This document shows, piece after piece, positions 193 through 9,122 of a stretch of DNA of 11,314 nt; position 1 is the stretch's first letter; the number at the start of each line of letters is the position of its first letter. The stretch is from assembly GCA_946409885.1 (NCBI GenBank), contig CAMJYF010000022.1, forward strand, positions 1-11,314, written 5' to 3'. Under the pieces are notes generated by a model that did not search any database, was not told where the DNA came from, and was given only the letters and a program-made list of their open reading frames with translations. Origin of the DNA: an uncultured Clostridia bacterium. Lineage in GTDB: Bacteria > Bacillota > Clostridia > Oscillospirales > Acutalibacteraceae. Position numbers and translations under genes: made by a program.

Positions 193-1653
193 TTACAGCG
201 TGATCACCTGTGTGGCCAACGCGTCCTGAAACGCCTTGTCATGCTCCACCAGCAGCATGGTGGGCTGCCAGGCGGCGATGAGCCTTTCCAGCTGCCGTCG
301 GGAGTAGATATCGATATAATTCAGCGGCTCGTCCCACAGGTACAGATGCGCCTTTTCGCACAGGCTGGCGGCGATGCAGACCTTCTTTTTCTGCCCGGCG
401 GAATACTCCCGCAGGTCCTTCTCATACTGCGTCCGGGAAAAACCGAGCTTTTGCAGGATCGCTTTAAACAATACGCCGTCGATCCCCCTTTCGGCGGCAA
501 ACCCGTCGAGCCCGCCGCTCAGGGCGGAGGTATCCTGCGGAACGACGGAAATGATAAGGCCGGAGCCCTTGTACAGGGTGCCGTGATAATCGATCCCCTC
601 CTCATACAGCAGCTTCATCAAGCTGCTTTTTCCGCTGCCGTTGCTGCCATTCAGAAAGATCCGGTCCCCGGCGCGGATCGAAAAAGAGACGGGCGCGTTC
701 ACCGCCCTTCCGTCATAAACGACGGATACCTGACGGTACTCCGCCAGTTTTTCCGAATGATAGGGCAACGGCCATATTTTTAACGTTTCGTCATATTCCA
801 CGTTTTTCAGCAGACGGGACTTTTCCTCCACCGCCCGCTGCTGCCGGTGCTGCAGATTTTTTGACCGTTGCATCATTTTGGCGGCCATGTGCCCCACATG
901 CCCCTTATCCCCGGCGCCGATCTTGGACCGTTCCACCTTGTCCGACCAATCCGCCGTTCTTCTTGCCGCCTGCCGCAGCCGCCGGATATCCTTCTGAAGG
1001 CGCTCGTTCTGCTCCTGCTCCAGCGCCTGCTGCCGCTCAAAATCGGCAAGCCAGGTGGTAAAATCGCATTGTTTCACCTCGATATCCGCTTTGTTGATGG
1101 ATAAGATATGATCGACGCAGGCGTCCAGAAACGCCCGGTCATGGGACACGAGAATGAACCCCTTCTTCCGGTTCAGGTACCGGGCGACGGTCTCCCTGGC
1201 CGCCAGATCAAGATGATTGGTGGGCTCGTCGATGAGCAGAAACTGATTTTCGTTGAGGAACAGCGCCGCCAGCAGCGCCTTTGCCCGCTCCCCGTTGGAA
1301 AGGGTATCAAACGGCCGGTACAGGCTTTCCGCGGGCACGGCCAGCAGGGACGTTTCCCGCAGCAGCTCCCACTCCTCCGCCGCCGGGCAGACAGCGGACA
1401 GTACATCCAACGTGAGAAGCGAGGGATCCGGTACCGGATAGGGGAAATACTCAAACGCCACGGAACTGGCAATACTGCCGCTGTATTCATACTCCCCCAT
1501 CAACAACCGGAACAGGGTGGTTTTGCCCCGCCCGTTGCGGCCGACAAAGCCCAGCTTCCAATCAGTATCCAGCAGTACGCTGGCGTGGTCAAATACATTA
1601 TCGAAACTGCCGGGATAGGCAAAGCTCAGATTCTCTATTTTGATCAACGACAT
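193..1653 (-). CDS. Lsa-type ABC-F ribosomal protection ATPase (antibiotic resistance family)
   Basis: A 486-residue cytoplasmic protein with two ABC ATPase domains and no membrane segment, as in ABC-F proteins. Domain 1 has Walker A GRNGRGKTT (38-46), signature LSNGE (118-122), Walker B LLIDEPTNHLD (139-149) and switch His171. Domain 2 has GSNGSGKSS (336-344), YSAGQ (417-421), LYLWDEPLNYID (437-448) and His471. Between them is a charged helical linker (about 195-300), the part that reaches the ribosome's P site and peptidyl-transferase centre. The DEPLNYID form, the MKMMQRSK-like linker region and the length match the Lsa group (Lsa(A) is about 500 residues), which in enterococci gives resistance to lincosamides, streptogramin A and pleuromutilins. 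The exact drug range is inference. The frame stays open up to 1800, but the start chosen at 1653 has a GAGAGGT ribosome site and gives the typical N-terminus MSLIKIENLSF. The upstream part is an attenuator leader, not coding. Confidence 0.9.
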   Translation of the reverse strand: MSLIKIENLSFAYPGSFDNVFDHASVLLDTDWKLGFVGRNGRGKTTLFRLLMGEYEYSGSIASSVAFEYFPYPVPDPSLLTLDVLSAVCPAAEEWELLRETSLLAVPAESLYRPFDTLSNGERAKALLAALFLNENQFLLIDEPTNHLDLAARETVARYLNRKKGFILVSHDRAFLDACVDHILSINKADIEVKQCDFTTWLADFERQQALEQEQNERLQKDIRRLRQAARRTADWSDKVERSKIGAGDKGHVGHMAAKMMQRSKNLQHRQQRAVEEKSRLLKNVEYDETLKIWPLPYHSEKLAEYRQVSVVYDGRAVNAPVSFSIRAGDRIFLNGSNGSGKSSLMKLLYEEGIDYHGTLYKGSGLIISVVPQDTSALSGGLDGFAAERGIDGVLFKAILQKLGFSRTQYEKDLREYSAGQKKKVCIAASLCEKAHLYLWDEPLNYIDIYSRRQLERLIAAWQPTMLLVEHDKAFQDALATQVITL

Positions 1654-1670
1654 ATCCGTTACCTCTCTTT

Positions 1671-1713
1671 CAAAACAAATGACGCCGCAGGGAGAATATC
1701 CCCACAGCGTCAT
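1671..1713 (-). promoter_or_regulatory. Attenuator hairpin upstream of the ABC-F gene
   Basis: Reading the minus strand, ATGACGC (1713-1707) and GCGTCAT (1685-1679) form a perfect 7-bp stem. It continues inward through G-C and G-U pairs to GGGA/TCCC, about 15 pairs around a TATTC loop. TTGTTTT follows directly at 1678-1672, ending 18 bases before the ABC-F start codon. A T-tailed hairpin between promoter and gene fits transcription attenuation, as known for other resistance ABC-F genes. Two alternative pairings could break it: GCGTC just upstream with the GACGC of the 5' arm, and a CGC..GCAGG segment (1794-1785) with CCTGC.GGCG of the 3' arm. Confidence 0.65.
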
Positions 1714-1793
1714 CACAATACGACGCCCGGCCGCGCGGCCGCGTATCGCAAAGGTATCGGATCTGTTTGTGAAAAGATAATCTGCCTGCAAGC

Positions 1794-1823
1794 GCAGCAA
1801 GGGGCACTGCCCCCTTGGTCTGC
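1794..1823 (-). promoter_or_regulatory. Leader hairpin in the ABC-F 5' region
   Basis: On the minus strand, CAAGGGG (1817-1811) pairs with CCCCTTG (1804-1798). Outside it GCAG (1823-1820) pairs with CTGC (1797-1794) across a two-base bulge, giving 11 pairs. No T-run follows, so it is not a terminator itself. It lies between the short leader ORF and the attenuator. It also separates two exact copies of CGCTTGCAGG (1847-1838 and 1794-1785), the first of which lies inside the leader ORF. It may act as an anti-antiterminator or as a pausing structure. Confidence 0.5.
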
Positions 1824-1834
1824 AAAATTCTGTT

Positions 1835-1855
1835 TTACCTGCAAGCGTGAATCAT
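1835..1855 (-). CDS. Short leader peptide MIHACR preceding the ABC-F gene
   Basis: A minus-strand ATG at 1855-1853 opens a six-codon ORF, MIHACR, ending with TAA at 1837-1835. It has a strong ribosome site, AGAGGTG at 1867-1861, five bases before the ATG, better than that of many full genes here. It starts about 25 bases after the expected transcription start. Short translated ORFs before resistance ABC-F, erm and cat genes sense drug-stalled ribosomes. The position, upstream of a hairpin and an attenuator, fits that role. The peptide sequence itself is not one I recognise, and function is inferred from layout. Confidence 0.55.
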   Translation of the reverse strand: MIHACR

Positions 1856-1885
1856 CTTTCCACCTCTTTCGTTGTTTCTGACGCC

Positions 1886-1914
1886 AGTATAGCATATCTG
1901 TTTGGAAAACGCAA
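1886..1914 (-). promoter_or_regulatory. Sigma-A promoter for the ABC-F leader and gene
   Basis: On the minus strand, TTGCGT (1914-1909) is followed by a 17-base spacer and TATACT (1891-1886). Transcription would start near 1879, leaving a leader of about 225 bases before the start codon at 1653. It is divergent from the promoter at 1940-1968, with about 25 bases between the two -35 boxes. Confidence 0.7.
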
Positions 1915-8819: not shown

Positions 8820-9005
8820 CAATGAAGTCGCTCCCTTTGCGGGGCTAATGAAGAAATTAAGACGCTTCGCTAATGAAGACGGTCCGCTGATGAAAATAAT
8901 TCGCTAATGAAGACGTGCCTTCTGAGCTGATTGTTTGCCGGGGCGACTTCGCTTCATTAGGCGCATCTTGTAGCGCCGTCTTCATTATGCATGTCTTCAT
9001 TAAGC
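8820..9005. repeat. Cluster of forward and inverted GCTAATGAAGACG-like repeats
   Basis: Forward copies are at 8844-8853, 8869-8881, 8886-8896 (variant GCTGATGAAAA) and 8903-8915, with a partial AATGAAGTCG at 8821-8830. Inverted copies are at 8952-8960, 8977-8987 and 8993-9005. Copies at 8869 and 8903 match over 13 bases. Other pairs add to the symmetry: 8824-8834 with 8940-8950 (11 pairs, one G-T) and TGATTGTTT 8928-8936 with AAACAATCA 9021-9029. The patch can fold into a large branched hairpin. It has no plausible gene or ribosome site. The rest of the gap, 9006-9122, is AT-rich and I see nothing else in it. Confidence 0.75.
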
Positions 9006-9122
9006 AAGCATGAACTTTCTAAACAATCAATGGATTTTGCTGTTTCGATCATCAACATTGTAAGGTTAAACGTCAATACAGGCACTGCATGAGATTGGAA
9101 TATTATAAATCTACAAATATCG

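Follow-up and report, generated by a model that had tools for sequence, protein, structure and literature searches.

The DNA analysed here (the window, 11,314 nucleotides) is contig C22 of a draft genome of 428 contigs and 2.33 Mb with a completeness of 69%. It carries an ABC-F resistance gene that is preceded by a structured leader, present as a single copy in the draft genome. The gene product gives 685 bits over its full length with the NCBIfam model NF000167 (Lsa), the top of 177 models and below the curated cut-off of 750, and 433.9 bits with the general model for ribosomal-protection ABC-F proteins (NF000355), above the cut-off of 380. Because of these two scores, we call the gene Lsa-type and divergent. 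The ribosome is protected by Lsa-type genes against lincosamides, streptogramin A and pleuromutilins. Certain genes of this type are mobile.

The elements of the leader are given in Table 1. A preliminary description of this DNA had proposed that ribosomes stalling on a short uORF control the gene, and the parts it listed are where it had placed them. These are the promoter (a consensus match), the six-codon uORF with its SD, two exact copies of CGCTTGCAGG on the minus strand (1847-1838, inside the uORF, and 1794-1785), the 11-pair hairpin and the T-tailed terminator. It had omitted a 14-pair stem, in which the SD and start of the uORF (1863-1850) pair with 1782-1769, and the anti-SD segment. 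The 14-pair stem and a 9-pair stem make up the U:M duplex. Since the 10-mer is nearly self-complementary when G-U pairs are counted, the two CGCTTGCAGG copies pair with each other, each supplying one strand of the upper stem of U:M. The inner hairpin joins GCAG (1823-1820) to CUGC (1797-1794) and CAAGGGG (1817-1811) to CCCCUUG (1804-1798). The anti-SD segment and the hairpin at 1747-1717 sit between arms M and T.

Table 1. Lsa-type gene and elements of its leader
Feature	Position	Strand	Basis or remark
Lsa-type ABC-F gene	193..1653	minus	486 residues; start ATG at 1653
Promoter-like TTGCGT 1914-1909, 17-base spacer, TATACT 1891-1886	1886..1914	minus	consensus match only
uORF MIHACR, ATG 1855-1853, stop ends 1835, SD GAGGTGG 1866-1860	1835..1855	minus	sequence; uORF likewise placed in four distinct close relatives
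Arm U (1863-1850 and 1846-1838), pairs with M	1838..1863	minus	duplex -28.7 kcal/mol; 91.3% of cells paired, five leaders
Inner 11-pair hairpin within the U:M stem	1794..1823	minus	fold
Arm M, partner of U or (1789-1776) of T	1769..1793	minus	triple-fit search, fold energies
Anti-SD segment, complementary to gene SD/start 1666-1651	1750..1765	minus	0/100 shuffles as good
Hairpin between M and terminator, apex of the M:T fold	1717..1747	minus	fold
Intrinsic terminator, hairpin 1714-1672 with T tract	1672..1714	minus	-25.8 kcal/mol; ends 18 bases before ATG 1653
Arm T inside the terminator	1687..1700	minus	pairs with M (1789-1776) at 12/14 positions

An Rfam scan of the whole window gave only two tRNAs at gathering score. 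The leader alone had no match at that score (FinP reached 12.9 of 45 bits), and the seven related loci searched gave no match either. Two repeats lie elsewhere in the window. Positions 1-147 hold a short, MITE-like element whose inverted ends match perfectly over about 22 bases. In the draft genome, its 18-base core is present in 38 forward and 37 reverse copies (at most one mismatch), and copies often face each other in pairs at a spacing of about 60 to 200 bases. At 8820-9010, 3' of the genes for tRNA-His and tRNA-Gln, there is a block of 'taatgaag'-like units in both orientations.

Folding of the leader

The region 1630-1885 folds at -111.1 kcal/mol, compared with -75.3 (sd 4.7) for shuffled sequences (z -7.6; 0 of 200 as good). 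In the window, the duplex of U with M is worth -28.7 kcal/mol, that of M with T -13.7 and the terminator hairpin alone -25.8. The preliminary description had the second repeat copy leave the uORF for the terminator. This exchange of partners is supported by the comparison of leaders, but the register and length it gave are not, as the alternative pairing is longer and joins 1789-1776 to 1700-1687. It had also proposed folding the leader with the uORF occupied and free. With the uORF masked, the terminator still forms with a probability of 0.988-0.992. A plain equilibrium switch is thus rejected, since the terminator persists at about 0.99.

Because of this persistence, forced folds were then compared. 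In the full leader, the M:T fold costs 21.5 kcal/mol with U free and 4.8 kcal/mol with U masked. At seven lengths of the growing RNA, again with U masked, the terminator beats the M:T fold by 1.3 to 6.8 kcal/mol. As the terminator is the better fold even with U masked, the switch, if it works, would be decided during transcription.

Comparison with related leaders

Relatives of the gene were collected at several depths. A search of genome contigs gave 30 loci, two of them remote. Lsa-type genes are found in 3 of 26 genomes of the same genus (E < 1e-250, source genome included), 58 of 250 genomes of the same family (E ≤ 1e-90), 36 of 398 genomes of the same phylum and 137 of 197 genomes of a Paenibacillus-like family (E ≤ 1e-120), which we take to be Paenibacillaceae. 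In the latter, upstream regions were read at 30 loci and at 60 more taken down the list. Among 72,556 plasmid records, 134 carry an Lsa-type relative, 111 of them from Enterococcus, and four were fetched. The comparison set comprises 201 upstream regions of related ABC-F genes; L025, L027 and L031 were left out since their 5' part is missing.

The strict pattern, consisting of an SD, a start codon and an arm TT[CT][TC]TGC that ends at +15 to +19, was found automatically in 141 of the 201 regions. Among controls, it matches 32 of 4020 sequences resampled by a Markov model, none of the 201 reversed sequences and 14 of the 201 reverse complements. The window's clade lies outside the 141, having another arm, CGCTTGC or TACTTGC. 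A looser pattern matched 150 regions. Removing eight false or mis-registered matches and L183 (by score) and adding 15 leaders placed by eye (the window with its four close relatives, three leaders in a corrected register and seven with other arms) gave a set of 156. For each of these, we scored how well M fits both U and a site at least 25 bases further down, and compared the score with 40 shuffles. This triple fit is equalled by at most 2 of 40 shuffles in 143 of the 156 leaders (1 of 40 for the window; 117 of 6240 overall). It is weaker in the other 13, for example L205 (17 of 40) and L101 (14 of 40). The sequence of M is mostly GCAAGAAAG, GCAGGAAAG or GCGGGAAAG, and in the window's clade GCTTGCAGGC or its kin.

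Covariation between U and M was tabulated from 142 of the 156 leaders (13 with other arms and one without M left out), and that between M and T from 108. At one position of U-M, the pairs are T-A 98, T-G 28, C-G 15 and C-A 1 (Fisher p 2.8e-8, kinship ignored). One position of M-T has A-T 66, A-C 4, G-T 16 and G-C 22 (Fisher p 3.1e-9, kinship ignored). The preliminary description had proposed checking conservation and covariation among relatives. Close to the window, the uORF keeps its place in four relatives, and the five leaders have 91.3% of cells paired in U:M, 85.7% in M:T and 91.3% in the terminator (slid controls, 24 to 57%). Covariation is found across the family but is weak in these five leaders, since five are too few: shuffles reached the scores in 185 of 500 cases for U:M, 45 of 500 for M:T and 20 of 500 for the terminator. 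The comparison of related leaders thus supports an attenuator ahead of the gene. Because of the triple fit and the covariation of U, M and T, we assign it to the kind known from vmlR and cplR. Three features of such attenuators are found: a uORF with its own SD, a hairpin that holds the uORF and excludes the antiterminator, and a terminator that separates the uORF from the gene. A fourth, sequestration of the gene SD in read-through RNA, is seen in the window, L003, L005 and L014 and not in L002.

Of the 197 Paenibacillus-like genomes, 22 contain the exact U/M/T pattern, at 24 places in all and with no reversed-control match among the matches listed, and 23 of the 24 places are directly before a gene recognised as lsa by tblastn. 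The 24th (L253), read by eye, precedes an apparent decayed lsa remnant. This tie to lsa bears on the idea that the terminator is constitutive, or a decoy, and does not respond to drugs, the arms serving another signal such as general slow translation or RNA processing. The M:T fold is disfavoured at equilibrium, as this idea would have it. But a design placed so consistently before one gene argues against it, as does the control of vmlR and cplR by their uORFs, which has been shown by experiment (PMC9226507, PMC10201436). We consider a constitutive terminator highly improbable.

Control could also be mainly translational, with the SD of the gene hidden by RNA and the T-tailed hairpin of minor importance. 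In the fold of the window, the SD of the gene is paired with a probability of 0.77, and in four of the five close leaders, the SD-complementary segments change in step with the SD region. Shuffles as good as the anti-SD segment number 0 of 100 for the window, 2 for L003, 1 for L005 and 0 for L014, but 28 of 100 for L002, where the pairing fails. Taken over 142 family leaders, SD pairing does not exceed that of shuffles (6641 of 14,200 shuffles as high), so that sequestration of the gene SD was not found as a feature of the whole family. Moreover, the pairing probability stays at 0.77 with U masked, and it is arm T and the terminator that recur across the leader family. Mainly translational control is thus very unlikely in our estimation.

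Some leaders were noted in passing. The plasmid gene lsa(E) of Enterococcus faecium pY13 (L114) has a leader of the same family with the uORF MYNFSC, which is also found at its tree neighbour, the chromosomal locus L132 (genome G570). Lsa(B) (L111) and its kin (L112, L143, L145-L149, L153 and L154) are preceded by another kind of leader, in which a distinct short ORF and the repeat TCCGTATA.GTCG are conserved. In L144 and L150-L152, two leaders apparently stand in tandem, an Lsa(B)-like one (TCCGTATAAGTCG) adjoining the gene and a start-stop one far upstream.

Encoded peptide and distance from the start codon

The preliminary description had proposed checking whether MIHACR is conserved. As a peptide it is not: the uORFs in this position encode MILACK, MILACR, MINTCK and MINTCN in the four distinct close relatives. 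In peptide arrest, as known from the leaders ErmCL and MsrDL, the drug would halt translation at one specific residue of the encoded peptide (such as ...SC or ...ACR). Cys is indeed frequent at codon 5 or 6, with 84 uORFs carrying residue-Cys. Outside the Paenibacillus-like family, moreover, most uORFs have six codons (54 of 78 distinct leaders; seven codons in 15, two in three, nine in two, and eight, five, three and one codons once each). However, the codons follow what pairing demands, as Cys is TGC in 83 of the 84 uORFs and all 74 Ser codons are TCT or TCC. The arms are kept where the peptide ends in SR (MISRSR twice, MRNISR and MRHFSR in L091, L093, L095 and L096). The residue is absent from uORFs that stop before the arm, namely MK* (L015, L129), MR* (L135) and MRK* (L101), and from one-codon uORFs. 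The conserved peptide that is the hallmark of arrest leaders is therefore lacking, as the peptides vary and some uORFs encode only one to three residues. By codon use and natural peptide variants, peptide-specific stalling is not favoured, and we regard it as quite unlikely.

What recurs is a distance. When starts are picked by their SD match and nothing else, 107 of 137 leaders have an arm that ends at +15 to +19 relative to the start codon; 12 of the remaining 30 are cases in which the SD rule chose a TTG inside the arm. A ribosome that is held at the start codon has its leading edge in this interval, and the start codon is a site at which lincosamides, streptogramin A and pleuromutilins are known to stall ribosomes. 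This comparison of sequences suggests that the encoded peptide is less important than the RNA arms and their spacing to the start codon. Of the stall on a leader ORF that the preliminary description proposed, the ORF is retained, and the relatives point to its start codon as the site.

In 55 of the 78 Paenibacillus-like leaders, from 11 genus codes, a stop follows the start codon directly (UAA 25, UAG 20, UGA 10), compared with 5.7% stop triplets in these leaders overall. The other 23 have a sense codon, GAT in 12, and L213 can alternatively be read as MDM* from an earlier ATG. On a tree of 60 Lsa proteins, made by a short search (60 of 61 passed the length filter, L159 having been left out beforehand), the 33 stop and 27 sense states require at least seven changes, with 17 of 56 inner branches open. 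Judging by position and SD, the AUGs of the start-stop leaders would be used as starts. As proof of selected termination, these triplets are weakened by the fact that they usually lie in the U:M duplex, which takes in 33 of 33 bases of UGA, 54 of 60 of UAG, 68 of 75 of UAA and 45 of 69 of sense codons. Every U-purine-purine triplet is able to pair at this place, and of the four such triplets only one is not a stop. Since the triplets also pair with M, they may be by-products. UGG follows the start once (L175), compared with about 4 of 56 expected for independent purines, which fits selected termination as well as pairing alone.

The lsa leaders may be pure start-codon sensors, in which the arm at the edge of the initiating ribosome is kept and the peptide is let go. 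The Paenibacillus-like ORF would therefore often be just a start and a stop, and the one-codon ORFs would report a catalytic centre blocked before the first peptide bond. We hold this to be a little short of an even chance.

Proposed mechanism and comparison with known systems

We put the probability at roughly 80% that the leader is a ribosome-gated transcription attenuator of the Lsa-type ABC-F gene, to which the window's clade adds a second lock at the level of translation. Without drug, ribosomes would leave the tiny uORF, U would pair with M, the terminator would form and transcription would end. In the window's clade, RNA that is read through would hold the SD of the gene in pairing with 1765-1750. 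When formation of the first peptide bonds is blocked by a drug (a lincosamide, streptogramin A or a pleuromutilin), the ribosome would be held at the start codon of the uORF, its edge at about +16 covering U as far as the conserved TTGC. The freed M could then pair with T and spoil the terminator. The anti-SD segment lies within the M:T helix and the SD of the gene outside it, so that both pairings are impossible in one nested fold; once formed, M:T would thus exclude the anti-SD pairing. The peptide would be largely a by-product, and what is kept would be an RNA arm whose distance to the start codon is fixed. We infer the drug, the stall, the switch itself and a decision while the RNA grows from what can be read in the sequences: the uORF, the arms, their three-way covariation across the family, the distance rule and the terminator.

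If the start codon is the sensor, these leaders offer a natural test of whether the drugs are sensed at initiation in the cell. In addition, many of them would escape a search that looks for conserved leader peptides. A 2016 term-seq study reportedly covered lmo0919.

The leader is a new example of uORF-controlled ABC-F attenuators, and the preliminary description was right in kind. The variant in which the conserved quantity is the distance from start codon to arm is, as far as our searches reach, undescribed. The open-access PMC literature that we covered contained no M-x-x-x-S-C leader and no start-stop drug sensor; the uORFs named there are MIN, MDN, MDK, MRK, MR[I/M], MK[L/Q], MAGN, MLV, MRS and MVGDDDISG (PMC9226507, PMC10219788, PMC10201436, PMC12421871, PMC9841429). 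In E. coli, AUGUGA and GUGUGA also place a start codon used by ribosomes directly before a stop, but they shift ribosomes between overlapping frames, and the sections available describe neither drug sensing nor attenuation (PMC9841429). LsaA is likewise an Lsa gene with a short conserved uORF. Compared by consensus peptide, its MAGN is unlike all uORFs tabulated here in both peptide and length (PMC10201436).

The cplR leader of Clostridioides difficile, which is induced by lincomycin and retapamulin, shares a 5' hairpin that sequesters the uORF and a terminator, which in cplR also hides the SD of the gene. It differs in that the gene belongs to ARE1, the uORF has three codons (MR[I/M]) and the SD lies within the terminator stem itself (PMC10201436). 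The vmlR leader of Bacillus subtilis, compared by its described layout, is alike in having the uORF in an anti-antiterminator hairpin, a middle hairpin, an intrinsic terminator and a pairing that sequesters the SD, a predicted one in the window. Its gene is of clade ARE2 and its uORF has three codons, MIN, with the variants MDN, MDK and MRK (PMC9226507). The start codon of this uORF was shown by a 30S toeprint at +16, and induction by lincomycin requires both the start codon and the SD (PMC9226507). Stalling at the start codon has thus been reported on uORFs of ABC-F leaders (PMC9226507, PMC12421871). In Streptomyces, are5sc (MLV) and tiaA (MVGDDDISG) are ARE5 genes of actinomycetes with other peptides. 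Their toeprints at the start codon depend on lincosamides, tiamulin and pristinamycin IIA, and they share with our proposal the drug-dependent stalling at the start codon of the uORF (PMC12421871).
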